DNA from: Lachnospiraceae bacterium
Lineage (GTDB): Bacteria > Bacillota > Clostridia > Lachnospirales > Lachnospiraceae
NCBI GenBank assembly: GCA_024692885.1
Contig: JAILLZ010000007.1
Coordinates: 1 to 32,534 of the forward strand
Direction of reading: 5' to 3'
DNA length: 32,534 nucleotides
The notes beneath the pieces are model-generated. The model was not told where the DNA came from, ran no database searches, and saw only the letters and a program-made list of their open reading frames with translations. A program made the position numbers and the translations under genes. Shown piece by piece: positions 2,178-24,349 of the stretch; the stretch's first letter is position 1, and each line of letters opens with the position of its first letter.

Positions 2178-3275
2178 TTACTCATATAGTATCAAACCAC
2201 CATCTATTTGTCCAGCATCCAGGGTGGCTTCTTTGAGCTTAAATACCATAGCATTAACGTCCAGATAGCTGTTTCCGTCAAGCAGACTTTCGTTGTTCAG
2301 TTCGACAATTTTGACCCTGCTTCTGATAGGTCTGAACTGATTCAAAAGTTGAAACAGAAATGTCTTTTTTTCTTCGTCCGCATGGTTTTTTATGAGGACG
2401 GTAACACCGTATCTGTCCTCCGGTCTCAAAGCGGAAATCTTCTCCTCGTTTTCCTTGTTTTCGTATGACACGATGGTATTCTGCTCGAGAATCAGAGGTT
2501 TCTCTCCGAGGACTATTTCCACACATCGCTCAAGGGCCCATCTCGATCCCTTCATGCGATTCAGCTGCCATGCTTCCTTCACTATTTCTCTCATGGTTTC
2601 TTCCGGGAACGAATCCGGAATAAGTTCCACGCCGAGCCATCTGGCATACTCAATAATCAGCTCCTGAGGGCACTTATCCATATCAAGAAGTTCAGGCAGC
2701 GCATCTATCTCAGCCTGTCTGTCATGATAAATCTCTGCAAATATGGAAATAAATCTGTGGAAAAAGCTGTCCCTCTGTCTGTATATCTCAGGAAAGATAT
2801 TTAAGAATATGTCCCCCTCCTGATCAAGGCGCATGCCATGTATATCAAAACGTCCCTCCTCCTTAACTATGATTGCAAGGAAAAGATATCTTCCCCTGCA
2901 TCCGTAGATAAGGATGTCGTTTTTCTGGGCAAAACGCTTTGCACCGAGTCGTTTCAGGAAATCCTCCTTCTCAAAAATGGAAGCATCGGATTTCAGATAT
3001 TCCCCTATATCGAGATATCTCTCTCCGTCGGTAATAACAGGGTCATCGGTGGCATAAGCATATATGTACCACGCACGCTCCTCGGCCGCATCAAGGTCCA
3101 TCACAAACCTGCCCCACTGCATTCCCTTCTCACCGCTGTCGAGAACATCGAGGAATATTCCTCCCGGAGATGCTTCGGGATCGGCGGAAACCAGGCAGTC
3201 ATCAGATTCATGAAAGCCCACCAGGCAGCTTCTCTTTATCCTGTTTTTCTTAATCGTAAAAACAATCTCAGGCAT
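2178..3275 (-). CDS. Phage tail protein I-like baseplate component
   Basis: 365 residues from ATG at 3275. The track start at 3293 is a GTG overlapping the previous stop; the internal ATG is preferred because GGAG lies 8 nt before it. The region from about residue 160 to 270 matches the P2 gpI/tail protein I pattern: FPEIYRQRDSFFHRFISIF, then a 'D..cP...L..lA..LGVEL' style segment and a helix-rich 'R..VKEAWQLNRMKGSRWALERCVE' stretch. The N-terminal ~150 residues are a beta-rich extension with WGRFVMDLD, common in CIS members of the family and absent from short phage gpI. The C-terminus carries the FRPIRSRVKIVELN segment. Gene order after two baseplate J-type genes agrees with a baseplate wedge or plate role. 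No receptor-binding domain is evident. Confidence 0.82.
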   Translation of the reverse strand: MPEIVFTIKKNRIKRSCLVGFHESDDCLVSADPEASPGGIFLDVLDSGEKGMQWGRFVMDLDAAEERAWYIYAYATDDPVITDGERYLDIGEYLKSDASIFEKEDFLKRLGAKRFAQKNDILIYGCRGRYLFLAIIVKEEGRFDIHGMRLDQEGDIFLNIFPEIYRQRDSFFHRFISIFAEIYHDRQAEIDALPELLDMDKCPQELIIEYARWLGVELIPDSFPEETMREIVKEAWQLNRMKGSRWALERCVEIVLGEKPLILEQNTIVSYENKENEEKISALRPEDRYGVTVLIKNHADEEKKTFLFQLLNQFRPIRSRVKIVELNNESLLDGNSYLDVNAMVFKLKEATLDAGQIDGGLILYE

Positions 3276-5390: not shown

Positions 5391-8300
5391 TTATCCTTGT
5401 GTTATGTGTATTTTATGTTCACCGCTCCTGCATACCATGTATGGCTTTACGGAAAGCTCCGAAAGATCCTGCTCATGTCTTCCGTCAGCATCGGTCCACG
5501 ACGCGCTAACGGATATTTTTCTGATTATGAGTCTGCTCTTTAAGTTTCCAAGCCTCATCATAATCTGCGGGATCTTAGGCATTACGCCTATTCTCCATCC
5601 GCCGTTTCCCTTTCCTTTAACAGGACTCAAATATGCATCCAGGACTTCTTTTACCATAGGCTGAAGTTCAAAACTGTCATCTATATCAACTACGTCGCCC
5701 CATATATCCACGGAAATGGCCACATACACCGGCTCCATGATTTTGATTCTCTCCGCCGGAATCGTGATCTCACAATGGTCACATATGTATTCCCTGAGTG
5801 GTGCCTCCGTCCTGTGGAATGAATATGAACCGCTTTCAAAGTCTGTCATCAGAAGAAGTAAAGCAATGTCATCTTCCCCAACTCCAAGTCCGCCGGAATC
5901 CTCGGTCACAAGACATTTCACCTGATCTATGCTGTCACTGAACCTCTTGCAGGCTCTCTCGTAATCCGAAACCGTTATCAGCCTGTAACGGCTGTGAAGT
6001 ATGTCAGCGCCTCTTTCAAGAGCTGCATCCATTGTCTCCATGTCGCTTCCGCCAAAGGCTTTAACCGGGTTTATAACCTCGCCCAGATGATGGAAGTTTC
6101 CAACCGGAGCCGTGATTGCTCCGACAGGAACATTTCCCGCTCTTCCGAGACAGCTCTTGATCTGCACCGTAAAAGCTATATTGTCGGTCACTCGTGGGAA
6201 GTCTGTCTTTAGCCCGTCACCGAAGATAATCTGTCTGTTCATCCTGTCGAGGACATATGCCCTTTTATCCTCCGCAGTGCTTAAGCTGTCCACCTCGTGC
6301 CATCTCACGTAAAAGGCGGTGATTCGTCCCGAAACATCGCGCTCCGATCTGATATTATCCGGGTCTTCCTGCTCTTTTCGCTTCATCGCAGGCTGACCGT
6401 AAAGGCCGTATTCGTTTACCCATACATCTGCCGAGAGGATATTTGAATGCGATAAAGCAAATTTCATATCCGGTACGGCTTCCTCGATGTAGTATTCCTG
6501 AACCTCATGGGTATCTATATTAGAAACCTCTACGGCATTAACCTGTATTCCCGCAACTCTTGGCAAGGAGGAATCTTTTTCATCGCCCGGTATGCGTGTA
6601 ATCCTGATCCAAAATCTTCTTCTCTCCTCAATCGAAACCGAATTCCAATCCGGCTGTGGAATGAAAAAGACGGTTCCGGATTTTGTGAATCCCTCCGTAT
6701 GATCAAGCACCTTAAGAGGCAGAAACTCTTCTCCCCTCGAATACTCAAATCTGCATCTCACACCCGAGAACCTCTGCTCATCGGCCAATGAGAAAAATAT
6801 TGATACAGGTCCGTCCGCTGGTCTTTTGTCAAATCCCAGATAAAGAGAATCTTCCGTGTATGCCGAAGGCTTAAATACTACGAGTTTTCCTTCGGAGGAA
6901 GACACTCTTGTCTCCAAAGTCACATCTTTTCTTGAGGAACCGCTTATTCTAAGGACTCTTGAAGCCTCCACCGGATTTCCGAGATATGAGAAGTCCATTC
7001 TAAGTCCGGTCACTCTCGGGCAAAAATGTACCGCCGGTCTCATATAGCAGTTGTCTGCCCGAACCAAACGCATTCGTAAAAACTTTCCCTCGGAGGCCAG
7101 CACAACGGTGCTCTTCCAGTCATCCGGCACGGTGAATGAAATGGTCTTGTCTCCCGAGATACCGTCAGCAAACAATCCTGCGTTCAACTCATCGCATTCC
7201 AAAATGCTCCAGCCAATACCGTTGTAGTACTCGATGGTTATCTCATCGGCATGTACCTGTACCGGCACATCGGCCTGAAGATTCCTTGGTTTTCTTTTTA
7301 TGACAAGTAGTCTTGCATCCTCCTCCACTCTAGATATTCCAAGTGACTCCTCCTCGTACTCCACGTGGAATCTCATTGTCACATGCGCACCGCTCATGGA
7401 AAAATAGCTGTCGTGCCCAATGTATATTTCAGAGTAAAGATTCAAAGTGTCGGAAAAAGGAAGAAAATCCTCCTTATCCCTCTCAATTCCGGAATCACAA
7501 ACTACCTCCGCCCGGACATTGTCTCCCGCTGAGGCAAATGAAAATCTCGTTGCCGTGATAACATTTTTAACAGCTCCCTCCATGTAAAGAGCCAAAACAC
7601 TGTACTCTTTTCCGGATAATGCCATCTTTCCGCACTTGAGGGATTTTTTGATTACCAAAGTTTCTCCGTCTCCCAATTCCTTTATCTCATCCACCGGAGA
7701 AAAGATCTCGTAATCATTGTAATAAAATACTTTTATGCTTCCATCCAGAATGCCTTTGTAAACGTCCGCTCCACCCTCAATCTTCATGTAAATCGAGGTG
7801 TTTTCCACATCAAATACAGACGGGTGGTAAAAAACCATCATGTTATCGCCTATGCCTTCATGCACGCCAAAAAGCGTGAACGGTTCCATAGGCGGCGCCA
7901 TAAGCATGTAACTTCCGTCCTCTTCGCCTTCTTCCCCATCGCTTTCACGGCTGCCCAGAAGACCCGGCATATCAAAATTGCCCTTAAGCGGAACAACTTT
8001 TCCACTCTTTGTGTCGGACATAAATATATCCGTAATGGAAGACGATGTTACATAGAGACTCTGTTCCGTCTCAAATACCACATTCTCTGCCTCAGAAACT
8101 ATCTCTGATGCCATGAGTTTTGTTCCCTTCGGGACATAGGCTCCGGCTATCGTATCTGAAGTCAAAGACATCAAAACTATACTCTTTGCCGGTTTTGCCG
8201 GAAGCAGAGAAAGATCCAAGAAATTGACGAACTCCCTGTGATAACGCTCCGTTATTCTGTTTCTCTTTTCACCTATGGCCTCGGTCTGATCGGCATAAAC

Positions 8301-8435
8301 CATTCCCAAGGCTGTACCTATATCGGGATTGTCCCTGTCAAACCGCCATTCGGGCGTATACGAAGAAGCCAGACGCTCTATTTTGTCCAGCGTTTCTTCC
8401 CGTATATCGTTTTCATTGGTCGATTTCTTCGTCAT
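5391..8435 (-). CDS. Baseplate J/gp47-type wedge protein, large (Afp11/Pvc11-like)
   Basis: 1014 residues, the usual size for the larger CIS wedge protein. The N-terminus contains 'YTPEWRFDRDNPDIGTALG', the variant signature of Afp11-type proteins. The C-terminal third has VNEYGLYG, FGDGLKTDFP and ITAPVGNFHHLGEVINPVKA, followed by ERGADILHSRYRLITVSDYE, all typical of baseplate J proteins. A short acidic loop (DGEEGEEDGS) interrupts the N-terminal third. The ATG overlaps the end of the gp25 gene by 23 nt, and AGGAG sits 9 nt upstream, so translation is coupled. Expected to form the inner wedge that links gp25 and the sheath to the baseplate periphery. Confidence 0.88.
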   Translation of the reverse strand: MTKKSTNENDIREETLDKIERLASSYTPEWRFDRDNPDIGTALGMVYADQTEAIGEKRNRITERYHREFVNFLDLSLLPAKPAKSIVLMSLTSDTIAGAYVPKGTKLMASEIVSEAENVVFETEQSLYVTSSSITDIFMSDTKSGKVVPLKGNFDMPGLLGSRESDGEEGEEDGSYMLMAPPMEPFTLFGVHEGIGDNMMVFYHPSVFDVENTSIYMKIEGGADVYKGILDGSIKVFYYNDYEIFSPVDEIKELGDGETLVIKKSLKCGKMALSGKEYSVLALYMEGAVKNVITATRFSFASAGDNVRAEVVCDSGIERDKEDFLPFSDTLNLYSEIYIGHDSYFSMSGAHVTMRFHVEYEEESLGISRVEEDARLLVIKRKPRNLQADVPVQVHADEITIEYYNGIGWSILECDELNAGLFADGISGDKTISFTVPDDWKSTVVLASEGKFLRMRLVRADNCYMRPAVHFCPRVTGLRMDFSYLGNPVEASRVLRISGSSRKDVTLETRVSSSEGKLVVFKPSAYTEDSLYLGFDKRPADGPVSIFFSLADEQRFSGVRCRFEYSRGEEFLPLKVLDHTEGFTKSGTVFFIPQPDWNSVSIEERRRFWIRITRIPGDEKDSSLPRVAGIQVNAVEVSNIDTHEVQEYYIEEAVPDMKFALSHSNILSADVWVNEYGLYGQPAMKRKEQEDPDNIRSERDVSGRITAFYVRWHEVDSLSTAEDKRAYVLDRMNRQIIFGDGLKTDFPRVTDNIAFTVQIKSCLGRAGNVPVGAITAPVGNFHHLGEVINPVKAFGGSDMETMDAALERGADILHSRYRLITVSDYERACKRFSDSIDQVKCLVTEDSGGLGVGEDDIALLLLMTDFESGSYSFHRTEAPLREYICDHCEITIPAERIKIMEPVYVAISVDIWGDVVDIDDSFELQPMVKEVLDAYLSPVKGKGNGGWRIGVMPKIPQIMMRLGNLKSRLIIRKISVSASWTDADGRHEQDLSELSVKPYMVCRSGEHKIHITQG

Positions 8436-9747: not shown

Positions 9748-11352
9748 TTATAAAACTGCATTTGCATCAAACTCCACTGCCGGCGCCTTTGCTGTTATTC
9801 TGGTGATATATCCGTTTTCCGTATCATAGATATGTCTGACGCTAGTCACATAAAAATTGTTGCTTACGCCCTCGCCGAAGGATGTCACGCATATGAATCT
9901 TCCCGGCATCATCTCAGGCAGCCCCACCATTTCCATCTCAAGAGTACCGAAACGGTAAGAAATCTCATCTGCTATCGCCTTTGCCCTATCCTCGGCATCC
10001 TCCTTTGAAAAAAGGGTTGAATCCACGTAAACATATTTTGCGTTTGATACTATCTGTTTTGTCTTGCTACCCATGGAAAGCTTGGTTCCTATTTTTTGAG
10101 AACTCGATATAAGTGCCCCCTTTGTAGGGTTTGTTGCTCTAACCTCCACCTTCCCCACCTGTGTGGTAAGGTCGTACTCTATATCAAGAGCCTTTATGCC
10201 GTTATCACTGTTTAGAGTGATGAGCAAAGGTTTTATCGACTTTGCTTTTCTGAAATATGGTTTTCCCGCAACAACAAAAAATTCGTAATCATAACGTTTT
10301 GCTACCTTAATGACAAACTCGTAATCGCTCTCATCCACCATCTCAATGGTTTTTTCACGGGCCGGTTTTATAACTCCCGGCTTTGGAGTAGGCTTTCCCG
10401 GAGGCGCCGTGAGTGCGAGGGCTGCTTCCGCAGCCTCCTCTGCAGCCTTTTTGGCTTCCATGGCCTGCTTTATGGTCTCCTTAATCTGAGCCTCGGTCTC
10501 CTTTGCCTGTTTTATGGTATCCATAACGGTTGTTACCGTATCCGTAACCCTGTCTATGGTGTTCATGGCTGTCTGAGCTGCCTCCATGATACCTGCTGCT
10601 CCCGGAACGGATGCTACAGCTACACCGGCAGCTGTTCCCGCAGCGGTCTTTGCCGCATATTTAGCCTTTTCCGCAGCCTCAGATGCCGCTGTATCAAGGG
10701 CTTCGCCAAGACCGCCTATTATACTGTCCGTTACCTTGTCGGAAAGCGCTGCCCCCGCCTGTTGGATTGCTGCCTGCTGTGCCGCCTCCACGGCTGCCGC
10801 TGCAGCTCCAGCTGCACCCTGCTTTTTATCCGGCGAATCCTCTATCGTGTTTTCGAGGTCAGGTGCATATTCGGAAAGAAGTCCCGAATATCTGGAGTCG
10901 CCAAGAAGTGTCTTTACCGCATCCGAGTAATATTCGTCTTCCAGCTGCATCGACCTTTTTCCCGCCATCATCATTGCCTTGATATCGAGGGCCGTGACCT
11001 CGACGCACGCCGGGCTTTCCGTATCCACATGAAAAGCCACCTTGGCTATATAGCCCACAAAAACCATGGTTTCCTTCGCCTCATAGCCCACAGAGATTTC
11101 CACGGTGGCTCCGAGTTGAATAATCTTTGAGAATTCATCTGTTTTAAACTTATGATTCTCGGCATCGTAGGTTTCAAAAACCATGAAGGTTGCAATCGAA
11201 GCCTCGTAATTGCAAGTGTTCTCTATAACCACATTGCCCAGAAACAGTTTGCTGTCCCTAATGGAAGTACCGTTTATGACAGCATTTGCTCTAGGCCCCA
11301 CGAAATTTCCGTATTCTTTTTGTAAGGTTTCGTATTCGAATTCCGCTCCCAT
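9748..11352 (-). CDS. gpD-like baseplate hub protein with Ala-rich insertion
   Basis: The ATG at 11352 is preferred (534 aa), since GGAG sits 5 nt upstream and the longer track start at 11517 would overlap the previous gene by 118 nt. Residues 1-150 are the first hub domain (LFLGNVVIEN, VFVGYIAKVAFHVDTE, VEVTALDIKAMMMAGK). The gpD pattern continues at about residue 335 with DESDYEFVIKVAKRYDYEFFV and ends with a SEKIG-like stretch and RFGTLEMEMVG...PGRFICVTSFG. Between them, residues ~170-330 are an Ala-rich, helical and partly hydrophobic insertion with a glycine-zipper-like stretch and a Pro/Lys-rich tail, not part of the usual fold. The hub joins tube and spike in phages and CIS. Confidence 0.85.
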   Translation of the reverse strand: MGAEFEYETLQKEYGNFVGPRANAVINGTSIRDSKLFLGNVVIENTCNYEASIATFMVFETYDAENHKFKTDEFSKIIQLGATVEISVGYEAKETMVFVGYIAKVAFHVDTESPACVEVTALDIKAMMMAGKRSMQLEDEYYSDAVKTLLGDSRYSGLLSEYAPDLENTIEDSPDKKQGAAGAAAAAVEAAQQAAIQQAGAALSDKVTDSIIGGLGEALDTAASEAAEKAKYAAKTAAGTAAGVAVASVPGAAGIMEAAQTAMNTIDRVTDTVTTVMDTIKQAKETEAQIKETIKQAMEAKKAAEEAAEAALALTAPPGKPTPKPGVIKPAREKTIEMVDESDYEFVIKVAKRYDYEFFVVAGKPYFRKAKSIKPLLITLNSDNGIKALDIEYDLTTQVGKVEVRATNPTKGALISSSQKIGTKLSMGSKTKQIVSNAKYVYVDSTLFSKEDAEDRAKAIADEISYRFGTLEMEMVGLPEMMPGRFICVTSFGEGVSNNFYVTSVRHIYDTENGYITRITAKAPAVEFDANAVL

Positions 11353-11399
11353 ATCTTCTCCGTGTCCGTCCGAAATACTTATGTTAAACAAAAAGATGT

Positions 11400-12278
11400 T
11401 TACAATCCCAAAATATTCTGAGCATTCTGCGTCCAATTCGGTCCGAGCGATGTCTTTCCGTTTGTGAATGCTTTCTTGTAGTACTCCATCCAAGGTCCCT
11501 TTTCCTTGCCGTTCCATACAAGTACAGGGTTATTTGCATCTGCCAAGATTATCAATAGCTCTATGGTGGCTCTTGTAGGGTGACCGTTCGGATCGAATAT
11601 TGTATATGTGGAATTTGCACTGGTCAGTATTCCCGTATATGTCATGTCGCCCCAATAGAACGACACCATTCTCGTGTAATTGTTTCGAAGCATGGCTGCA
11701 AACATCTCCACGTCCCTTTGAATGGATCCGGATTCACCGTCCGTAAGCCATGATTCCGCCGATTCCAAATATGATTTTCCCGCATCAACCAATGATGAGT
11801 TCACACCCGGAATGCTGATTCCCATTGAAATCTGACTTGATATAGTCCTGTCCACAATAAGTGGAATTCTAAGCTCCAGGTTTGCCTGTCGAGTCTGGAA
11901 TGTAACCTGGATTCCCTTTGAACACTCGTTCATCGGAACCTCGGCAGTACCATGACCGGTCAGTGATATTCTGTTTGGATTAAAAAGCACTTCATAGCGC
12001 AAGAATTTTGTTCCGTTTTTTGCTTTTCTTGATGAAGAGCCCAAAACATCTCTCATGGTTCTTGCCATTGTGGCTTCAACCTGCTCAGTCACCTTCTTTT
12101 GAAGCTTTTCCGGATCAAGTCCCATGGACGCAAGCTGAAGTTCTGTTGAACTCTTTAAAGCCTGCCTCTTTGTATCTATTTCTTTTCCGACTTCACGCTG
12201 GTCCTCAAACTCTAGGATTGCCTTATCAAGCATTCCCGGAATGATGCCGGCGAAATTGCTCTTAAAACTATTAGACAT
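11400..12278 (-). CDS. CIS tube-domain baseplate adaptor protein, copy 2 (Afp7/Pvc7-like)
   Basis: 292 residues. Residues ~95-275 show the contractile injection system tube-protein fold seen in LysM-type adaptor proteins: YEVLFNPNRISLTG, a repeated strand pattern LELRIPLIVDRTI, VSFYWGDMTYTGILTSANSTYTIFDPNGHPTRATIELLI. The 'WG....F.G.l.....YT.Fd..G.P.RA.v' pattern is the family hallmark. The first 90 residues are helical and charged. I see no LysM domain at the C-terminus, where phage relatives often carry one. It shares the family with the gene just before it, so the two probably form successive rings linking tube to hub. AAGGAG ribosome site upstream. Confidence 0.8.
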   Translation of the reverse strand: MSNSFKSNFAGIIPGMLDKAILEFEDQREVGKEIDTKRQALKSSTELQLASMGLDPEKLQKKVTEQVEATMARTMRDVLGSSSRKAKNGTKFLRYEVLFNPNRISLTGHGTAEVPMNECSKGIQVTFQTRQANLELRIPLIVDRTISSQISMGISIPGVNSSLVDAGKSYLESAESWLTDGESGSIQRDVEMFAAMLRNNYTRMVSFYWGDMTYTGILTSANSTYTIFDPNGHPTRATIELLIILADANNPVLVWNGKEKGPWMEYYKKAFTNGKTSLGPNWTQNAQNILGL

Positions 12279-13060: not shown

Positions 13061-15559
13061 CTATACTCCTCTCCTGCTTCTTTCATTGGCGAGTCGCTTT
13101 TCTATCTGCCTGTACACCTTGTCTGAAATCGAATTCATCTTTCTGGTCATTCCCTCATCTATGAGTTCTTCCAGACGTCTTTCCTGATCAATTAGTTTTT
13201 TGTCAACTATGTTGCTTATGACTCTTTCATCTTTTTCGTGATGTTCTTCCACTGTATGATGTTCAACTGTTTTCGTGTTGGTTGTTCTGCTTCTCTGCAA
13301 TGCCTCCAGAGTCTCTTCATCAATAGCGGTTTCAGTGGTTTTATGAACCAGAGAAAGGTTTTCAACCGCTCTCTCCATCTTTTCCGATGCTCGTCTCTCC
13401 GTAGTATGAACCTGCCTTGCTTTTGCAAGTTCTCTTTCCAGAGTGTTTTTTATAAAACCTTCCGTCTCACGAATATTTTCCTCAGAGTCTCTTATCTCGT
13501 TTTGTATCAGCCTGTTTTCTCTGAGATGCTCCGTCGTGGCACGGCTTACTTCATTCTCGTAAAACTCTCTGTTTTCGCTTTCAGTGAGATTATTAAGCTC
13601 ATGTCTTTCATTTTCCTCTATAAGCTGATTTAAGCTGTTTTCCTCAGAGGTCCTAAGCTGCCTTTCCGTCTCCGAAAATGAGGTCTTAAATTGCTCCAGG
13701 TTGTTTATTTTCCGGTGTTCAGCCTCACGAAGTGTTTCTTCTCTCTCGGTGAATTCACTTTGATTTAAAACGTCCTGTCTCAAATGCTCTATCGAAGCCC
13801 TGTCTGTTTCGTTTTGATATACTTCATTAGACCTGTTCTCGGTAAGATTGTTAAGATTCCTTCTCTCATTCTCCTGTCTTCTGTATTCCCTTATATTCTC
13901 ATCCGAGATTTTCAGCTGCCTTTCAACTTCGCGATATGAATTTTCAACCTGGCGACTGTCATACAAAAGAGAACCTATGTCATTCTTTGTAATCTGCACT
14001 CCCTCCGGAATAATCTCCGGATGCTCCAAAAACTGCTGGATAAGAGTGAAAGCGTCAGGAGACTGGGTAAGTACGAGTTCACCTCTTTTTCTTTCGTACT
14101 CCTTCCTTCTCTCATCGGCCTTAATTCCTTCCTCACGGTATTTCTGCATGAATACCTCGGGACTTTTTAGAGCCTCCTTCTGTGCCTCCTCTATCTCTCT
14201 TCTTGTCTTTCTTGGGATGGATGCCTCATAATTTCTTGTCAGAGCATGCAGATGAGCTTCATAAGTAGCTCTCATCTGACGATTGTTTTCCTCAATATTC
14301 TGAGTGAGCTGCTGACGAAGCAAATTGTTTTCTGTTCTGCTTAAAGATGCATCTGTTCTCTCTGAAACAAATGTATTCTCCGCTATTTCATCACCTTTGA
14401 TATTTGTGATATCCGACGCGTTAAAAGCATTTTCATATGTATTTTGAGAAACGCTAAACTCCTCGCTGTCGTTCGTTTCAACAACATAGTTTAGGAGTTC
14501 GCTCTTTCTGGCATCGATATCCGATATCAGTTCCTCTCTGTTTATGCTTTGAAAATCCAGATTCAAAAAGCTTTCTGCATTTGTTATGCCTTCCTCAATC
14601 AAAGTCATGTTTCGGTGGAGATTTTCGGTAATCCTTTTAAAAGTGTTTTCCTCACTCCTGTAGAGGCTTTTTGCTATGGAATACCAACTGTTTTTGTATT
14701 CAAAATTCTCTTCACGCCGACTGACTGTTGCCGATCTTATCACCGACAAAAGCGCTGCCGCCGTGATACTTCTTTTTGCATCCTCCTCTGTCTCTTCCGG
14801 AAGAGCCGCCTCATTCTCATAATAATTGTCATGTCTGTAGATAAGCGGGAGTTCCTCTCCTCTGACCTCGTTTATGAGTGCCTGAAGCAAAAGCTTCTCG
14901 GCGGTTTCCTTCTGCTCGGAAATATTTATCTCGTTTTCCGTAATCTCGGAAAAGCCTTTTTCCTCCTGATAAAAATTGGATAAAACCTGATATAACGCAC
15001 CTGTCTGCAACCTTTTGAATATGGATTGATGCAGATTGTTTATATTGGTTTCATCAAAGCTTTGATTTTCTTCTTTTCTGCTCTCGGATGAGGAAATGTA
15101 TTCCTCCACCAGAGCCTTCATCTCTTCACTGTGATTCCAGTACGCATTCAGTTTTTCCGAAAAATCCCGCTGCTCGTTTTTTATATTTTCAACCCGCTTC
15201 ATAAAAGAAGCAGTTTCGGTAATTCCAAGCTTGTGCAATACATCCGTGATAAATACTCTGTCCTGATAGGTCAGGTTTACCGAATCGGACAGCGCAATAC
15301 GGTTCAAAAAATTATTTATGATCTCTATTTTTTTTGAGTTTATCTCCCTCACATTCACCGTGGAAGACATGTTTACACTGCTGCCTTCATCGAGAAGAAA
15401 AACCTCAGGTGGAGCGGTTAACAGATGAAGAAAATCCTCCCCCGTTACAGACAAATCAAAAAGCTCATAGTTTCCGATTATTCTATTGGCAAATCCTTCT
15501 CCCACAGTTGTGATGGGTGTACTTATTCTTGAGCGTATAGGTGCCTTTATTTTAAGCAT
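13061..15559 (-). CDS. 832-aa coiled-coil protein, probable tape measure
   Basis: No recognised enzyme or membrane segment. The first ~100 residues look folded (NYELFDLSVTGEDFLHLLTAP), while residues ~100-830 are Glu/Asn/Arg-rich helix with strong coiled-coil character. It lies between the tube and tail-assembly genes and the baseplate adaptor genes, which is where phages place the tape measure gene. If fully helical, 832 residues at about 1.5 A each would measure roughly 125 nm, a plausible CIS length. Two ~86-residue tandem repeats occupy residues ~546-717. GAGGT lies 8 nt before the ATG. Alternatives are a scaffold or a tube-lumen cargo adaptor. Function is inferred from position and shape only. 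Confidence 0.6.
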   Translation of the reverse strand: MLKIKAPIRSRISTPITTVGEGFANRIIGNYELFDLSVTGEDFLHLLTAPPEVFLLDEGSSVNMSSTVNVREINSKKIEIINNFLNRIALSDSVNLTYQDRVFITDVLHKLGITETASFMKRVENIKNEQRDFSEKLNAYWNHSEEMKALVEEYISSSESRKEENQSFDETNINNLHQSIFKRLQTGALYQVLSNFYQEEKGFSEITENEINISEQKETAEKLLLQALINEVRGEELPLIYRHDNYYENEAALPEETEEDAKRSITAAALLSVIRSATVSRREENFEYKNSWYSIAKSLYRSEENTFKRITENLHRNMTLIEEGITNAESFLNLDFQSINREELISDIDARKSELLNYVVETNDSEEFSVSQNTYENAFNASDITNIKGDEIAENTFVSERTDASLSRTENNLLRQQLTQNIEENNRQMRATYEAHLHALTRNYEASIPRKTRREIEEAQKEALKSPEVFMQKYREEGIKADERRKEYERKRGELVLTQSPDAFTLIQQFLEHPEIIPEGVQITKNDIGSLLYDSRQVENSYREVERQLKISDENIREYRRQENERRNLNNLTENRSNEVYQNETDRASIEHLRQDVLNQSEFTEREETLREAEHRKINNLEQFKTSFSETERQLRTSEENSLNQLIEENERHELNNLTESENREFYENEVSRATTEHLRENRLIQNEIRDSEENIRETEGFIKNTLERELAKARQVHTTERRASEKMERAVENLSLVHKTTETAIDEETLEALQRSRTTNTKTVEHHTVEEHHEKDERVISNIVDKKLIDQERRLEELIDEGMTRKMNSISDKVYRQIEKRLANERSRRGV
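13409..13924 (-). repeat. Tandem 258-nt (86-aa) repeats in coiled-coil gene
   Basis: Two adjacent copies encode similar ungapped segments: ERQLKISDEN...ENERRNLNNLTEN and ERQLRTSEEN...ENERHELNNLTES, continuing through DRASIEHLR and SRATTEHLR to matching NNLEQ and NTLER ends. The offset between the ERQL codons is exactly 258 nt. The copies have diverged at DNA level, so this is an old duplication within a coiled coil. Confidence 0.75.
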
Positions 15560-16595: not shown

Positions 16596-16778
16596 CTACA
16601 AGCGTCGTCCGCTCATTTCCGTGATACTCTTTTCCCTGCTTTCTCTGGAGGGTGAAAGCTCCTTGTTGATGGAGGATATTTCGCTGCACCATCGTCTGCG
16701 GTCCACATGCGGCAGTCCTGCTACCTCATCCTCCCCCCAATGGAAGTAATATGAGATGAATGCCATCTCACGGTACAT
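16596..16778 (-). CDS. DUF6760 family small protein; may be expressed by -1 frameshift from the preceding gene
   Basis: 60 residues from ATG at 16778, recognisable as DUF6760 by MAFISYYFHWGEDEV and the VDRRRWCSEISSIN segment. Family members normally begin a few residues earlier with a YP..xL-type stretch. Here the frame stays open upstream of the ATG and encodes KLYPKDE, which fits that conserved start, yet no ATG, GTG or TTG lies there in frame. AAAGG sits 5 nt before the ATG, so an ordinary start is possible. The frame is -1 relative to the tail-assembly gene, and an AAATTTT heptamer in the correct phase lies 12 nt before that gene's stop. The protein may therefore be the C-terminal part of a fusion analogous to phage G/GT. 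See the frameshift entry. Confidence 0.78.
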   Translation of the reverse strand: MYREMAFISYYFHWGEDEVAGLPHVDRRRWCSEISSINKELSPSRESREKSITEMSGRRL

Positions 16779-16798
16779 CTCATCCTTTGGGTAAAGCT

Positions 16799-17161
16799 TT
16801 AACCCTCCTCTGTAAAATTTAATGGCACCTCAAATGTCTTTCCGCAGTCCGGACATACAGCCGTAATCTTCGGTGGTTCGACATCGTTTATTCTCTGGTA
16901 CATGTCCTGGAGAAATGCCAAATCAGCCGTAAACAGTTTTTCTATGTGGGTGGCGGTTATAACCTCCACACCTTCCAAATCTGTTATGACCTTGGAAAGC
17001 ACTACTATCGTAAGATAAGACGGATTGGACAACACTCTCGGGTCTCTGGTTGCTGAGATTTCGTCACCTGCTGTGGCAAGTCTCATATGACCTTTTCTGT
17101 GAACGTTGCCTTCCTTGTCTACATACCCCTTTGGTAAAGTAAATTCATATACTGTCTCCAT
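16799..17161 (-). CDS. Phage tail assembly protein (CIS)
   Basis: 120 residues with the recognisable pattern YEFTLPKGYVDKEGNVHRKGHMRLATAGDEI, then LSNPSYLTIVVLSKVI and FTADLAFLQDMYQRIND. This is the conserved small tail assembly protein directly downstream of the tube gene in CIS clusters. Near the C-terminus it carries a single CPDCG pair, which could be half of a zinc site. By position it corresponds to the tail assembly chaperone of long-tailed phages. AAAGGGG lies 5 nt before the ATG. The 3' end contains a candidate slippery sequence that would connect it to the DUF6760 frame. Confidence 0.85.
   Translation of the reverse strand: METVYEFTLPKGYVDKEGNVHRKGHMRLATAGDEISATRDPRVLSNPSYLTIVVLSKVITDLEGVEVITATHIEKLFTADLAFLQDMYQRINDVEPPKITAVCPDCGKTFEVPLNFTEEG
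16814..16820 (-). other. Candidate -1 ribosomal slippery heptamer AAATTTT
   Basis: On the minus strand, the tail-assembly frame reads TTA AAT TTT ACA. This places A-AAT-TTT in the X-XXY-YYZ phase needed for simultaneous -1 slippage. A shift here would continue as YRGGLKLYPKDEM and run into DUF6760 with no stop. GAGGAGGG lies 4 nt downstream but no start codon follows it at a suitable distance. Not demonstrated. Confidence 0.45.
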
Positions 17162-17233: not shown

Positions 17234-17734
17234 TTAGTTCGGTATAACGAGCTCCTCATATGCAAGTTCAACGCTCTCAATAGCAACGTCAGATGTCTTT
17301 GCATCAAGATCCGGTGCATTGTACTTGGTTACCCATGCATTTGTGAGAATCCATACACGATCACCTGTTACTGTTTCAGAAACCTGTGAAGGTGCCTCAG
17401 CGTTTATATCGATAAGCTCTATTGTGACATTTGAACGAGGTATCTGTCCTCTTCTCTCACTTACACACTCACGAATCCACTCTTTGAATGTGGAATCCAT
17501 TGTGTAGCCCATCTTTAATGTTACATTACCGTGTTTAACAAGTCCCGGTAACTTTACAGGTGCAAGGCTGTTTGCATTGCCCTGACGGAACTCAATTACA
17601 TCAATTGATGCCTCGATACCGGATACTTCAGAAAATGCTGCTGTACCTGCTACTCCATCCACATTGACGATGAAGTTCATCTTCGTCAACGGATAAGCCA
17701 GGCCATCATTAGTTTTATAAGGATCTGTAGCCAT
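17234..17734 (-). CDS. Tail tube protein
   Basis: 166 residues, the normal tube-subunit length. It begins with MATDPYKTNDGLAYPLTKMNFIV-type pattern and then FSEVSGIEASIDVIEFRQGN, matching the conserved tail-tube consensus 'f.e.sGle.e.e.i.yreGg'. It ends with a WVTKYNAPDLDAKTSDVAIESVELAYE segment typical of Afp1/gp19-like proteins. These subunits stack as hexamers to form the inner tube expelled on sheath contraction. The gene lies 25 nt after the sheath gene and is followed by a strong hairpin. Confidence 0.94.
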   Translation of the reverse strand: MATDPYKTNDGLAYPLTKMNFIVNVDGVAGTAAFSEVSGIEASIDVIEFRQGNANSLAPVKLPGLVKHGNVTLKMGYTMDSTFKEWIRECVSERRGQIPRSNVTIELIDINAEAPSQVSETVTGDRVWILTNAWVTKYNAPDLDAKTSDVAIESVELAYEELVIPN

Positions 17735-17759: not shown

Positions 17760-19460
17760 TTATTCCTCGGTTCCGCCGCCGGCTTCGGCAGTGTGCTGTG
17801 TTACACGGAAGATTACGAACTCTGCCGGACGTGAAGGTGCAATACCGATATTGCAGATCAGGCGGCCATTCATAATGTCATCCTTCGACATTGTGGAAGC
17901 TCCTATTTCAACAAAATATGCCTCGCTTGGCGAAGATCCTGCCAACATGCCGTTTCTCCAAAGAGTATCTAAGAATCCTGATACAGTCATATTTACTCTC
18001 TGCCACAAAGCAGCATCGTTCGGCTCGAATACTACCCAGTTTGTAGCAGTCCTGATAGACTCCTCAACGAAGATGAAAAGTCTTCTGACATTGACATACT
18101 TGAATGCCGAATTTGTGCTGGCTGTGCGTGCGCCCCAAACTCTGATTCCCTGTCCAGGAAGTGCGCGAATGAGGTTGATGCCCTCAGGGTTTAAGATATC
18201 CTGCTCGTCCTTGGTGTAATTTACTGAAAGACCTGTACAGAATACAGCTTCATTTGCCGGAGCTTTGTGTACACCACGATTGATATCTGTCCTTGAGTAG
18301 ATTCCCATTACAGCTCCTGAAGGAGGAATGTATGCAGACTTGTTTGAAGCTCTGTCAAATACCTCGATCCAAGGATGATACATTGCTGCATATGTTGAAT
18401 CTATAATGCTTCGATAATTAATGAGTTCCTCAGGCTTTGTCATATCCTTCGGCATATCAAAAACTGCGAAACGGTTTTTAAGGTTCTCACAATGACCAAC
18501 CAGAGCAACTACTACTTCAGGCATAGTAACGCCCGGAACTGCGATCATGCTGATGTTGTCATTCTCTACGAATGATGCGATACCGGTTCTGTTTCCAGGT
18601 CCGTTATCCTCACCGATGAATGTTCCCGCATTAACTTTTCCGATGCTTCCGTCACTTCCGCCGTCAAGAGTAACAACACCTGCTGTTAAGCCTTCACCAA
18701 GGATTGCCTCAACAGGGTTTCCTGCTTCCTTAAGCTGATCGACTTTTATCTTTACGAGTTCACTCTTTGCCATTCTCGCATCGATGTAGTTTGGAGATGT
18801 CGGGTTGAAGTTAACCTCTGCATAGTTCTCAACCTCATCACCAGCTCTAACGCTGACATTTACTGTAACGAGATAAAGAACTGTCTTTGGAATAACTCCG
18901 TCATCAACAACTGATGCTGCAAAGTCTTTTTCGAAGGTGATTGTATCTTCGTAAATGGTAGCTATACGGTTGTACTCGCCATTCACTTCTACGATATCTC
19001 CCTCGCGGAATCCATCTGCACTTTTTGCTATATATCCGCTACCGCTCTCTGCGATAAGCTGTAATTTTCTTTTCTCCACCGTATCGAGAGAAATCTGAAT
19101 ACGGTTGCCCCATTTACCTTCGTTAGCTGCTTCCACCGTAAGAATTCCTGCTTTAGCGGTAGCTTTCTTAGCATCGTTAGGAATAACGCGGGCTATAAAG
19201 CATCTTGTTCCACCGTTTGCAAAGAACTGCTCAACGCTGTTTGCCAGATAACGATATTCACCGTGGGTAAACTCGCTTAAAAATCCGCCGTACTGACGTT
19301 TAAAGCTCTTTATATCAGTGACAAGCTGCGGTGCTCCCTTTACGGGACCTTTCTCGGCAAGTCCAACAAATCCTGCTGTACTTGTTCCTACGCCTTCGAT
19401 AGATCTGGGCGAATTATCATATTCCTCAACATATACGCCCGGTGATAAATATTCAGCCAT
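17760..19460 (-). CDS. Tail sheath protein (subtilisin-like sheath fold)
   Basis: 566 residues from ATG at 19460. The track start at 19490 is a GTG without a good ribosome site, whereas AAAGGAG lies 6 nt before this ATG. The N-terminus MAEYLSPGVYVEEYDNSPRS is the classic phage/CIS sheath start. Residues ~20-120 (TAGFVGLAEKGP, FKRQYGGF) and the C-terminal domain (SAYIPPSGAVMGIYSRTD, GIRVWGARTAS, YVNVRRLFIFVEESI, NMTVSGFLDTLWRNGML) are diagnostic. A beta-rich insertion lies at about 110-260. The C-terminus ends in a GGGTEE tail. Contraction of this polymer drives the tube outward. One sheath gene is present in this window. Confidence 0.96.
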   Translation of the reverse strand: MAEYLSPGVYVEEYDNSPRSIEGVGTSTAGFVGLAEKGPVKGAPQLVTDIKSFKRQYGGFLSEFTHGEYRYLANSVEQFFANGGTRCFIARVIPNDAKKATAKAGILTVEAANEGKWGNRIQISLDTVEKRKLQLIAESGSGYIAKSADGFREGDIVEVNGEYNRIATIYEDTITFEKDFAASVVDDGVIPKTVLYLVTVNVSVRAGDEVENYAEVNFNPTSPNYIDARMAKSELVKIKVDQLKEAGNPVEAILGEGLTAGVVTLDGGSDGSIGKVNAGTFIGEDNGPGNRTGIASFVENDNISMIAVPGVTMPEVVVALVGHCENLKNRFAVFDMPKDMTKPEELINYRSIIDSTYAAMYHPWIEVFDRASNKSAYIPPSGAVMGIYSRTDINRGVHKAPANEAVFCTGLSVNYTKDEQDILNPEGINLIRALPGQGIRVWGARTASTNSAFKYVNVRRLFIFVEESIRTATNWVVFEPNDAALWQRVNMTVSGFLDTLWRNGMLAGSSPSEAYFVEIGASTMSKDDIMNGRLICNIGIAPSRPAEFVIFRVTQHTAEAGGGTEE

Positions 19461-19497
19461 TACTATCTCCTTTCTTTGGGCCTTTGCCACTTAATTC

Positions 19498-20666: not shown

Positions 20667-21269
20667 TTATTGACCTCCTTCCATATCCTGCTCTCCGGTT
20701 ACATGCAGTCCAAACTGTGCTTCCGTTACGCGTGGCGTATCGATAACAACTTCACTCGACAGGAATACGGGTGCTGCTTTATAAAACAGGCTTATCTGAT
20801 ACGGCTTATTGATTGCCTGCCACACCCTGACCTTTTCCTCAAGGCTTATCTTCGCTTGAGACAGCACTATCGGGGGCTCCTGTGTATCGAGCCAGGACTG
20901 CAACTGGTTCGGCAGCACCGAGGAATTGTCATTCACTATCTGCGCCGCCTTACCTATTATCTTTTGTACATCCGGGTCTTTGAGGCCCATCTGGCCTCCC
21001 CCGTTTATAAAAAGCATGTAGTAAAGACCGTAAGGTCTCGGAGGTTTCTGTAACTGCACCCTGCCTTTTCTAATTGTTGGGGGCAAAGCTACATTCATCT
21101 CCTCCCTGATATCGTAAAGGTACAATCCCACGATATAGTCGACGTCCTGCGACGCCGGGGATGAGATTTCGATGTTGTTCGGAGACGGAATCGGTTCCGG
21201 ACACATCTTTTCTCTCAGTACCTTGCATATGTAATTGCTCACATCCGAAATGATGGGATAATCTGCCAT
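20667..21269 (-). CDS. DUF4255 tail terminator/cap protein (Afp16/Pvc16-like)
   Basis: 200 residues. The DUF4255 fold is supported by IISDVSNYICKVLREKM at the N-terminus, VDYIVGLYLYDIREE, then RPYGLYYMLFINGGG and ILGKAAQIV-like helical pattern, and PYQISLFYKAAPVFLSSE toward the end. Family members form a hexameric ring that terminates tube and sheath polymerisation at the distal end. AAGGTGAT serves as ribosome site and contains the stop of the previous gene. Its presence marks this system as extracellular-type CIS lineage rather than canonical T6SS. Confidence 0.9.
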   Translation of the reverse strand: MADYPIISDVSNYICKVLREKMCPEPIPSPNNIEISSPASQDVDYIVGLYLYDIREEMNVALPPTIRKGRVQLQKPPRPYGLYYMLFINGGGQMGLKDPDVQKIIGKAAQIVNDNSSVLPNQLQSWLDTQEPPIVLSQAKISLEEKVRVWQAINKPYQISLFYKAAPVFLSSEVVIDTPRVTEAQFGLHVTGEQDMEGGQ

Positions 21270-21278
21270 AATATCACC

Positions 21279-24200
21279 TTAACTGTTGTTTAAAAATGCT
21301 ATGAACTCCAATGCTCTTGCCTTAACATCCGATGTCACGCAAACAGCTATCTGTGTCTGTGGAATCGGCTCCTCCTCACAACTGAAGTAGGTTAAAGCAT
21401 CTTTCTCTCTTATGTAAGTCACGGTCTGTCTCACTGCCTTACCTGTCAGCGAACGTCTCTGTCCGTCTGCGTTCTTAACGACATCGCTTCCAGACAAAAA
21501 CGTGAGATTGCTTCCGTTTCCGGTCATTGTTGTCTCTTCCGTGCTTCCATAGTAAATGTATCTGTATATTGTCACATCACCTATGGCTTTCAGGCTTACA
21601 TATTCCGTATTTCTGTCTGCCATATATTGATCGTAAAGATAAAACAGATCATTCAAATGTGCTCTGGCCACCTGTGCCGCATAAGCACCGGCCACTGTGT
21701 TTCCATCATTTCCCAACATGGAAAACGCTGTAATCACCGCTGCGAGATCCTCGTCTGAAAGTGATGACAACGGACCTCCGAAGAAATCATCCAAAGCCGC
21801 ATCCAATCCGTTCACGGAATACAAATCTATTCCGTTTCCGGTTCCACCATCATCAGCATCTGCTGCAGCTTTATCCAATATGTTTTTCATCAAAGCGTTG
21901 TTGCCGCTGTCTTCTCCCGAACCGCTTCCGCTTCCTGAACTACTTCCGCTTCCTGAGCCGCTTCCGCTTCCCGTTCCACTTCCGCTTCCCGAGCCACTTC
22001 CGTCTCCCGTTCCACTTCCGCTTCCCGTTCCACTTCCGCTTCCTGAGCCACTTCCGTCTCCTGAGCCACTTCCGTCTCCCGTTCCACTTCCGCTTCCTGA
22101 GCCACTTCCGTCTCCTGTTCCACTTCCGCTTCCCGAGCCACTTCCGTCTCCTGTTCCACTTCCGCTTCCCGAGCTGCTTCCGCTTCCTGAGCCACTTCCG
22201 TCTCCCGTTCCACTTCCGCTTCCTGAGCCACTTCCGTCTCCCGTTCCACTTCCGCTTCCCGAGCTGCTTCCGCTTCCTGAGCCACTTCCGCTTCCCGAAC
22301 CGCTTCCGCTTCCTGAACCGCCGCTCATTGAAGAGAGCTTATCCTGAAGCTTTGCGAGTGCATCCTTTGCTCCAAGTGCCGCCAGTCCGGATACAGCTGC
22401 TTCCAGCTTTGTGGTATCTCCGCCTCCAAGGGCTGATACCGCTGAATTGTAAAGTGAATCTATAAGTTTATCCTCACCTGCACCCATGGCTGCTCTCGCC
22501 TGTTCCTTTTCTCTGGTGGATGCATTTTCGGAATTCAAAATTGCATTGAGCTTATCTGTCTCGTCCGTTATTTTTTTCTTTACTTCCTCGATTTCGGCTT
22601 CCTTCTGTTTAGCTCCCTGAAGGTCGTTATTATCGAGGCAGCCCTGCTTTTCCTCCTCAAGCTCGTTCATCTCACTCTGAAGGTTTTGCAGGTCACTTCT
22701 TAAGCTTTCATTCTCTGCGAGTATCTGTTCAACCACATCCCTGAGCCACTCTATATGCTCGTCGTTCACTATGGTGCAGTTGGCCTTCGCATTGTCTATC
22801 TTTATCCAATCGTAAAGTTCTGTCGTCCAATCTATCCTGTCAAATATAAAATCCAGTGCTTCCGCCGGTTCCATACGTTTGCGTTTGGCATCTATCAAAA
22901 ATTCAAGTTCGGACCTGGCAGCTTCCATATCGTCATACTGCGCCGTCAGATATGACTCAGCCGCAACCGCTCCCGATGATCTGAGTGCCGTAGTGTATTC
23001 CTCGGAAACACCTGACGAAATTGCACTTTTGTATAATGTGTCCGCTTCCGGAAGAAATACGCTCTCAATCCTTGTATACTCGGATGACTGGTTTGCTATC
23101 AATCCATCACGGATGTTATACAAATCCATGAGTCCGTCCACCGCATCCTTTGAGGAGGATTCTATAACCGACATACTGAAGTCATATTCGTATCTTCCCA
23201 GTATGGTTTCTCCGTCTTCTATGAGTGAATTTGACAAGTGATCGTAATATGCGTTTGAAGCGCTCTCTTCGGCACTTGAAAAACCTTCTGTCTCTGAGAT
23301 TGAGGTTACAAATGTTCCGCTGTAAAAACCGACACCCTCAAGAAGCTTATCTCCCAAAGGAGTCATCAAAGCTTCAGGCTCCTGGATGAGTTGTCTGAAT
23401 ACCTCGGCTCGTCTTGTGGAATCCACTTTTCCCATAAGGTTGTAAACAACCTCAGCTCTCTCATTGTCCCCATTTGCCATCAGAGAATTGTATAATTCCT
23501 GAAGAGTTGCCAACCTGCTGTCACAAAGATCTGTCAGATCGTTATGAACATCATTGTCAAAGAAATCGTAAAATGCATTGTATACGTAGGTGTCCATATC
23601 CACGGATCGCTCCGCGTTATCCCCTTCTTCGTAGATATCTCCGCCGCCAAAAAGGCTTCTGATTCCCGATACAACCCTCTGTCCTCTCATCTTTAGGAAG
23701 TCCGCAAGCGAAGGTTCCTCTGCGTTTTCGTCCCCTGCATAAGCTTTTCTCAAAGCCGACAATTCAGGCAAATGATACAAATCATAAGGATCCGGATCGT
23801 CGAATCCGCCAACCACGGAACCCGTCTTTGCATCCAGCATCACACCATCCGCTCCGACTACCTTTGTGATGTAGAGTTCCGCCAACTCTTCCTCTGTGGC
23901 TGCAACTCCACTTTCAGGTCCCAAATCCTTAAGCCCTGCTGCATCGGTGATGTTTCTCCATGCACCGCCTGCCAGTTCCGAATAATAGTATCTCGTGGTC
24001 TGTTCAGACTCCGATGCGCTCTCATCAGCCTCTGCAAAAAGGTCGTCCGTCAAAGCCGAAAGAGCAATCAGATAAGTTCCGATAAACAGGGTGGAATTCT
24101 CTATATCATGGGTTGCCCTGTAATCCTTGTACTTTATTGCAGTTGAGGGATCAAAGGCTGCAAATGATCTCAACTGGGGAACAGCTATGATTCCCAGGAT

Positions 24201-24308
24201 TAGGGTTGCCACAAGTACAAGAGCGGCCAAGAGCTTATCAAAGCCCTTTTTATTCTTTTTTATCCTATACCTCGTATCCTTACGAACCTTGTAATCCTTG
24301 TCCCCCAT
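21279..24308 (-). CDS. Large membrane-anchored protein with coiled coil and Ser-Gly repeat linker
   Basis: 1009 residues from ATG at 24308 (AGAGGG 6 nt upstream); the track start at 24329 is a TTG with no support. Residues 1-25 are basic, 26-45 are a membrane helix, and everything after would be extracytoplasmic by the positive-inside rule. Next comes a mostly helical region with FIGTYLIALSALTDDL and YYYSELAGGAWRNITDAAG, a coiled coil around residues 520-590, a ~135-residue Ser-Gly/Thr-Asp repeat, and a ~170-residue C-terminal domain ending near FLNNS. The C-terminal domain has weak resemblance to stalk-type surface domains. It directly precedes the cap gene and may begin its own transcription unit. 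I do not recognise the full protein; a surface or envelope tether for the particle is inference. Confidence 0.8.
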   Translation of the reverse strand: MGDKDYKVRKDTRYRIKKNKKGFDKLLAALVLVATLILGIIAVPQLRSFAAFDPSTAIKYKDYRATHDIENSTLFIGTYLIALSALTDDLFAEADESASESEQTTRYYYSELAGGAWRNITDAAGLKDLGPESGVAATEEELAELYITKVVGADGVMLDAKTGSVVGGFDDPDPYDLYHLPELSALRKAYAGDENAEEPSLADFLKMRGQRVVSGIRSLFGGGDIYEEGDNAERSVDMDTYVYNAFYDFFDNDVHNDLTDLCDSRLATLQELYNSLMANGDNERAEVVYNLMGKVDSTRRAEVFRQLIQEPEALMTPLGDKLLEGVGFYSGTFVTSISETEGFSSAEESASNAYYDHLSNSLIEDGETILGRYEYDFSMSVIESSSKDAVDGLMDLYNIRDGLIANQSSEYTRIESVFLPEADTLYKSAISSGVSEEYTTALRSSGAVAAESYLTAQYDDMEAARSELEFLIDAKRKRMEPAEALDFIFDRIDWTTELYDWIKIDNAKANCTIVNDEHIEWLRDVVEQILAENESLRSDLQNLQSEMNELEEEKQGCLDNNDLQGAKQKEAEIEEVKKKITDETDKLNAILNSENASTREKEQARAAMGAGEDKLIDSLYNSAVSALGGGDTTKLEAAVSGLAALGAKDALAKLQDKLSSMSGGSGSGSGSGSGSGSGSGSSSGSGSGTGDGSGSGSGSGTGDGSGSGSGSSSGSGSGTGDGSGSGSGSGTGDGSGSGSGSGTGDGSGSGDGSGSGSGSGTGSGSGTGDGSGSGSGSGTGSGSGSGSGSSSGSGSGSGEDSGNNALMKNILDKAAADADDGGTGNGIDLYSVNGLDAALDDFFGGPLSSLSDEDLAAVITAFSMLGNDGNTVAGAYAAQVARAHLNDLFYLYDQYMADRNTEYVSLKAIGDVTIYRYIYYGSTEETTMTGNGSNLTFLSGSDVVKNADGQRRSLTGKAVRQTVTYIREKDALTYFSCEEEPIPQTQIAVCVTSDVKARALEFIAFLNNS
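21918..22325 (-). repeat. Ser-Gly coding repeat (linker)
   Basis: About 400 nt of near-perfect low-complexity sequence encodes repeated GSGSGSGTGDGSG-type units of ten or so residues, with AGC/TCC-type and GGA/GGC codons alternating so that several other frames stay open. This explains several long overlapping shadow ORFs here. Such arrays are prone to slippage and length change between strains. Confidence 0.9.
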
Positions 24309-24349
24309 ATCATTCCCTCTGACTGTCAAAGAAAATCATCAGTTCATTT

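Follow-up and report, generated by a model that had tools for sequence, protein, structure and literature searches.

A probable -1 programmed ribosomal frameshift between a tail assembly chaperone and DUF6760 in contractile injection systems

How is a gene translated when no start codon precedes the conserved beginning of its product? The window (the whole 32,534-nucleotide stretch of Lachnospiraceae DNA analysed here) raises this question with its DUF6760 frame, which is free of stops on the minus strand from 16829 to the stop at 16598-16596 (77 aa), and in which the first ATG, at 16778, lies 3' of the KLYPKDE/YP motif, with no ATG, GTG or TTG upstream of it. An earlier note on this DNA had proposed a -1 programmed ribosomal frameshift in the preceding tail assembly gene. 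We consider such a frameshift very probable on comparative sequence grounds, and our best reading is that it represents the ortholog, in a contractile injection system (CIS), of the E/E+E' shift of phage P2, predicted to yield a 120-aa chaperone and a fusion of about 188 aa.

Operon and junction

The gene content identifies the operon as a CIS, here a machine of gut bacteria that resembles a phage tail and injects proteins. It comprises a sheath, a gp19-type tube, two CIS_tube proteins, gp25, baseplate proteins V and J and Tail_P2_I, as well as a PAAR/DUF4280 tip and a Pvc16 cap, and there are no capsid genes in the window. The chaperone gene comes directly after the sheath and tube genes. None of 50,697 phage genomes contains DUF6760, a search of IMG/VR did not find it either, and it is therefore assigned to CIS biology. 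The features relevant to the junction are the following:

20667..21269, minus strand: Pvc16-family cap protein, a CIS marker (PF14065, E 2.5e-26)
17760..19490, minus strand: tail sheath protein (PF04984/PF17482)
17234..17734, minus strand: tail tube protein of the T4 gp19 family, the upstream neighbour (PF06841, E 1.4e-32)
16799..17161, minus strand: 0-frame gene, tail assembly chaperone (G / gpE-like), 120 aa, with a C-terminal CPxC zinc-ribbon-like motif (ORF, PHROG 508, AF2 model)
16826..16831, minus strand: GAGGTG, candidate upstream SD-like stimulator (codon bias; putative function)
16814..16820, minus strand: slippery heptamer A_AAT_TTT (sequence, conservation, synonymous constraint)
16803..16810, minus strand: GAGGAGGG, purine run 3' of the heptamer, SD-like, with no start codon at usable spacing (sequence)
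16799..16801, minus strand: 0-frame stop TAA, four codons past the heptamer (sequence)
16596..16814, minus strand: -1 frame extension (T / gpE'-like) beginning YRGGLKLYPKDEMYREMAFISYYFHW, DUF6760, 72 aa plus stop (PF20546; hhalign to P2 gpE')
16596..16778, minus strand: ORF as automatically annotated from ATG 16778, 60 aa, without the YP motif (ORF list)

Read as an ORF, the first gene extends in the 0 frame from ATG 17161 to TAA 16801-16799 and ends in GTG CCA TTA AAT TTT ACA GAG GAG GGT TAA. Within the overlap of the two open frames the heptamer stands in exact X_XXY_YYZ phase (ttA AAT TTT aca gag gag ggt taa), and a -1 slip at this point enters a frame that matches DUF6760 (PF20546) with 62.6 bits against a cut-off of 27 (E 3.7e-17). 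The predicted shifted product would have 116 + 72 = 188 aa, with VPLNF followed directly by YRGGLKLYP. The earlier note had thus read the junction correctly with regard to the frame open upstream of ATG 16778, the start codon missing before KLYPKDE, the phase of the heptamer, the frame entered by slippage and the spanning peptide (VPLNF, then YRGG). It had also taken KLYPKDE for the conserved start of the family, and the YP motif upstream of ATG 16778 is indeed invariant in relatives. Judging from the sequence, ATG 16778 is probably not the true start of DUF6760, and the 60-aa ORF would be a truncated form.

Elsewhere in the operon, three large proteins of 1014, 832 and 1016 aa (5391-8435, 13061-15559 and 21279-24329, minus strand) have no Pfam match; possibly one of them serves as the tape measure or is a component specific to this operon. 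The ORFs of a CIS_tube gene (11400-12278) and a coiled-coil YQBQ-like gene (9748-11517, both minus strand) overlap by more than 100 nt, which probably reflects a mispredicted start of the downstream gene.

Conservation and turnover of the slip site

We aligned at the junction 105 close loci, consisting of relatives of the 120-aa protein in genome contigs (80 loci) and DUF6760 hits within the same GTDB family; the window itself accounts for two of them. A_AAT_TTT is intact in 103 of the 105, down to about 52% protein identity and always in phase, the two exceptions being C_AAT_TTT, a single base change (L027), and the canonical T_TTT_TTG (L020). The position of the 0-frame stop shifts from 1 to 6 codons past the site, and DUF6760 keeps the -1 phase in all 105 loci. 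The earlier note had held that a variable phase between the two genes, or a heptamer not conserved in relatives, would count against frameshifting; neither was seen. In two loci (L087 and L093) the 0-frame stop lies one codon past the heptamer (ACT TAA GAGGG), with the -1 frame unaltered.

Codon statistics from 99 distinct gene sequences (median pairwise nucleotide identity 72%) place an in-phase heptamer at this one position in 98 genes, the runner-up in-phase XXXYYYZ position being occupied in 19. The third base of codon 114 is A (CTA, TTA, ATA or GTA) in 98/99 genes against a fraction of 0.19 expected from codon usage, and both AAT and TTT are found at the site in 99/99, compared with 60% and 71% elsewhere, respectively. 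CTA makes up 67 of the 77 Leu codons at the site but 17 of 1053 in the rest of the gene. As judged from codon usage, the synonymous constraint over the heptamer is extreme, and its placement is not due to chance; conservation of site and phase together with such constraint is the pattern expected of programmed frameshifting. The motif A_AA.U_UU.U belongs to the class H_HH.U_UU.Y, among the most efficient -1 motifs in a survey in Escherichia coli (PMC4066793).

The wider set of relatives covers Bacillota, plasmids of Cyanobacteria, Actinomycetota, Pseudomonadota, Spirochaetota and an archaeon, and ten IMG/VR contigs. Overall, the -1 phase holds in 139 of the 140 loci resolved by script, and nearly all unresolved loci are -1 by eye. 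A locus with DUF6760 in frame 0 (L142) was rejected as a counter-example, being a decayed, degenerate remnant. The slip site itself varies at a constant place and phase: A_AAT_TTT, T_TTT_TTG/TTA, G_GAT_TTT and, most broadly, NNG GGG GA[AG] or GGN, the last being the form outside the A/T-type clade and matching the GGGGGAA of phage tail-chaperone shifts. This heptamer is the sole sequence of the PRFect "fivetwo" motif, which covers about a thousand annotated SEA-PHAGES shift sites (PMC10885494). In low-GC clostridial loci GGG supplies only 7-14% of the Gly codons, but every G-type site there contains it. A tree built from the tail protein groups the A/T-type sites in a single clade (support 99/89), with the G-type rows next to it, and two loci (L020 and L134) contain both kinds of run.

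Two elements flanking the slip site are candidate stimulators of frameshifting. In the clade of the window, an SD-like GAGG lies 8-11 nt 5' of the heptamer, and Glu111 is encoded by GAG in 84/88 relatives, against about even use of GAG and the other Glu codon elsewhere. A Bacillota sister clade (L002, L003, L007, L008, L010, L011, L016, L021, L024, L106 and L110) has a GCCGG/CCGGC stem that starts 6 nt past the heptamer; five of its pairs are invariant and two covary, the covariation being at both ends. The GAGGAGGG run of the window doubles as the 5' arm of a weak GGG/CCC hairpin. Folding of the window segment gives z -1.0, and the downstream region in its clade a mean z of -0.5 to -0.9 per sequence relative to synonymous resampling, with no covariation in that structure. 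Given the weak z and the lack of covariation, a downstream RNA structure is unproven as a stimulator in this clade.

Kinship of the two products

The 0-frame product is homologous to tail assembly chaperones. It matches PHROG 508 "tail assembly chaperone" (E 1.8e-8), and one relative (L123) matches Phage_TAC_7, the family of P2 gpE and Mu gp41, at E 5.6e-5, just under the cut-off. The nearest PDB folds to its AlphaFold (AF2) model (pLDDT 80) are YqbN (3KLU, Z 6.6, 87 aligned residues) and the HK97 chaperone (2OB9, Z 6.1, 84 aligned), both Z values being moderate, and viral fold matches include Mu FS-gp41 (BFVD, E 1.3e-2). A weak sequence match to Gp41_Mu was seen in a relative (E 0.11). A direct profile comparison with P2 gpE gave no match (score 12, inside the shuffle range), so the homology to gpE rests on PHROG 508, Phage_TAC_7 in the relative and the fold; P2 E relatives from viral contigs were near-identical and of no use for profile building. 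The shifted extension, for its part, is homologous to a known T/E' domain: DUF6760 aligns to the P2-like E' profile (FHW...W) with an hhalign probability of 92% (E 5.5e-7, score 36.4; maximum of 100 column shuffles 16.2). The NCBIfam search gave nothing useful, and no paper in the library searched names DUF6760. A sequence search retrieved no solved structure containing either protein, which is at most compatible with their absence from the finished particle.

The earlier note had likened the arrangement to the G/GT chaperones of phages. This is confirmed, and a closer relative is the P2 pair E/E+E', which occupies the same slot after sheath and tube, has an annotated -1 frameshift and carries in E' a C-terminal domain (FHW...W motif) homologous to DUF6760. 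The P2 heptamer, T_TTT_TTG, is of a class also found in some CIS relatives, L020 being identical. Thus, the P2 system is matched in both halves, in the recoding phase and in the gene order from sheath through tube to chaperone. There are differences: the P2 pair sits in a phage and that of the window in a CIS; P2 has the order sheath, tube, E/E+E', tape measure, whereas in the window another tube-like gene follows the chaperone; and the G part of the CIS, with its zinc-ribbon-like CPxC tail and PHROG 508 match, differs from gpE. The phage version of the shift may also be present in R-type tailocins that descend from P2-like phages.

The lambda G/GT and HK97-type chaperones likewise combine a short chaperone with a -1 fusion, and the HK97 chaperone and YqbN resemble the CIS 0-frame protein in fold. 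However, the lambda slippery site is G_GGA_AAG, unlike A_AAT_TTT, and we claim no kinship of the lambda T domain to DUF6760. Mu gp41 has a frameshifted longer form (FS-gp41), as in CIS, besides the structural match. In contrast to the -1 shift of CIS, the Mu shift is -2, according to a passage of PMC2628397 citing Xu et al. 2004. The SEA-PHAGES tail chaperones (PRFect annotations, mostly predicted) share G_GGG_GAA with the CIS of other phyla but are phage genes.

As the more plausible history, we propose that P2-like tails and CIS inherited the frameshifted chaperone pair from a shared ancestor, and that nearly all DUF6760-bearing CIS of Bacillota, Cyanobacteria, Actinomycetota, Pseudomonadota and Spirochaetota have it. 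In one Bacillota clade the slip site would have changed from six-G G_GGG_GAN to A_AAT_TTT or T_TTT_TTG, with phase and function persisting, and some lineages would have exchanged or supplemented shifting with stop-start reinitiation.

Routes to DUF6760 translation

In an alternative scenario, DUF6760 would be made as a separate protein by termination-reinitiation near the end of the tail gene, aided by the SD-like run at the junction (GAGGAGGG or GGGGGA) and starting at ATG, GTG or TTG or at a non-AUG codon (ATA, TTA or CTT). The presence of this run speaks for it, and so do the loci with a start codon at hand. The earlier note had expected relatives to lack an in-frame start before the YP motif. 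This stands for 69 of the 105 close loci, the window included, which have no ATG, GTG or TTG before YP in the open -1 frame, but not for about 25 of them, where such a codon lies between heptamer and YP. In nearly all of these it is there because the 0-frame stop is TGA, not TAA (ATGA/TTGA overlap), and all except L027 keep the heptamer. Outside the close set, 28/34 G-type loci from other phyla have no ATG, GTG or TTG near the site, while some Streptomyces and Rhizobium loci have GTG/ATG overlaps that possibly permit reinitiation, and the Nostoc gene is annotated by NCBI from ATA. Against this scenario, the residual codon varies (TTA, ATA, CTA, TTG, ATG), GGGGGA lies just 0-3 nt from the putative starts, and the base-perfect A_AAT_TTT upstream, as well as its swaps to other canonical slippery heptamers, would go unexplained. 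In some species reinitiation may contribute to expression; as a general route it fails, and we regard it as highly unlikely as the sole source of DUF6760. That both routes operate, with a -1 fusion everywhere and some free DUF6760 from reinitiation in species with a TGA-derived ATG/TTG or an ATGA/GTGA overlap, is a less remote prospect, yet still an unlikely one: start codons and slip site do coexist in the same loci, but the window has no such codon, and a neutral choice between TGA and TAA stops accounts for those that exist.

It is still harder to maintain, to the point that we would practically dismiss it, that the codons of the heptamer are kept for reasons of protein or codon usage, the -1 overlap being incidental and DUF6760 starting at ATG 16778. 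That ATG does exist in the window; however, the codon specifies L, I, V or F in most relatives, the invariant motif lies upstream of it, and CTA is otherwise a rare Leu codon, so that the comparative data already contradict the proposal. Transcriptional slippage was also rejected, because the runs of 3-6 bases are too short.

For the preferred reading, a -1 ribosomal frameshift, we infer the slippage, its rate and its role in assembly as follows. Most ribosomes would stay in the 0 frame and produce the 120-aa chaperone (G / gpE-like). At A_AAT_TTT, the P-site tRNA-Asn and A-site tRNA-Phe of some ribosomes would re-pair one base back (AAU to AAA, UUU to UUU), and reading would go on as TAC AGA GGA GGG through DUF6760, making the fusion (G-T / gpE+E'-like) a minority product. 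If the phage systems are a guide, the chaperone would coat the tape measure, and tube subunits would be recruited by the DUF6760 part of the fusion. If so, DUF6760 can be assigned the role of gpE'/T half in a tail chaperone, a recoding device of phages has been retained in injection machines, and CIS control of tape-measure assembly and length becomes directly testable. Frameshifting at this CIS pair appears to be previously unreported, with no report in the literature searched (subscription papers and preprints excluded).

Many CIS operons would then contain a component that has been overlooked or wrongly annotated, a point of practical weight for anyone who rebuilds these machines or deletes genes from them. 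NCBI annotation of DUF6760 is erratic: the gene starts from ATA in Nostoc (L118:2992-3162) and 3' of YP in Rhodococcus (L120:3016-3159), and is absent in Brasilonema (L127, no gene at 3001-3138). Such public records suggest systematic misannotation of the family. On a plasmid of Haloferax larsenii (L124:2453-3249, an archaeal CIS), where DUF6760 is a separate gene with its own ATG, the two genes have the same -1 phase and an ATGA overlap, with no clear slip site; this junction is a possible natural swap of shifting for reinitiation.
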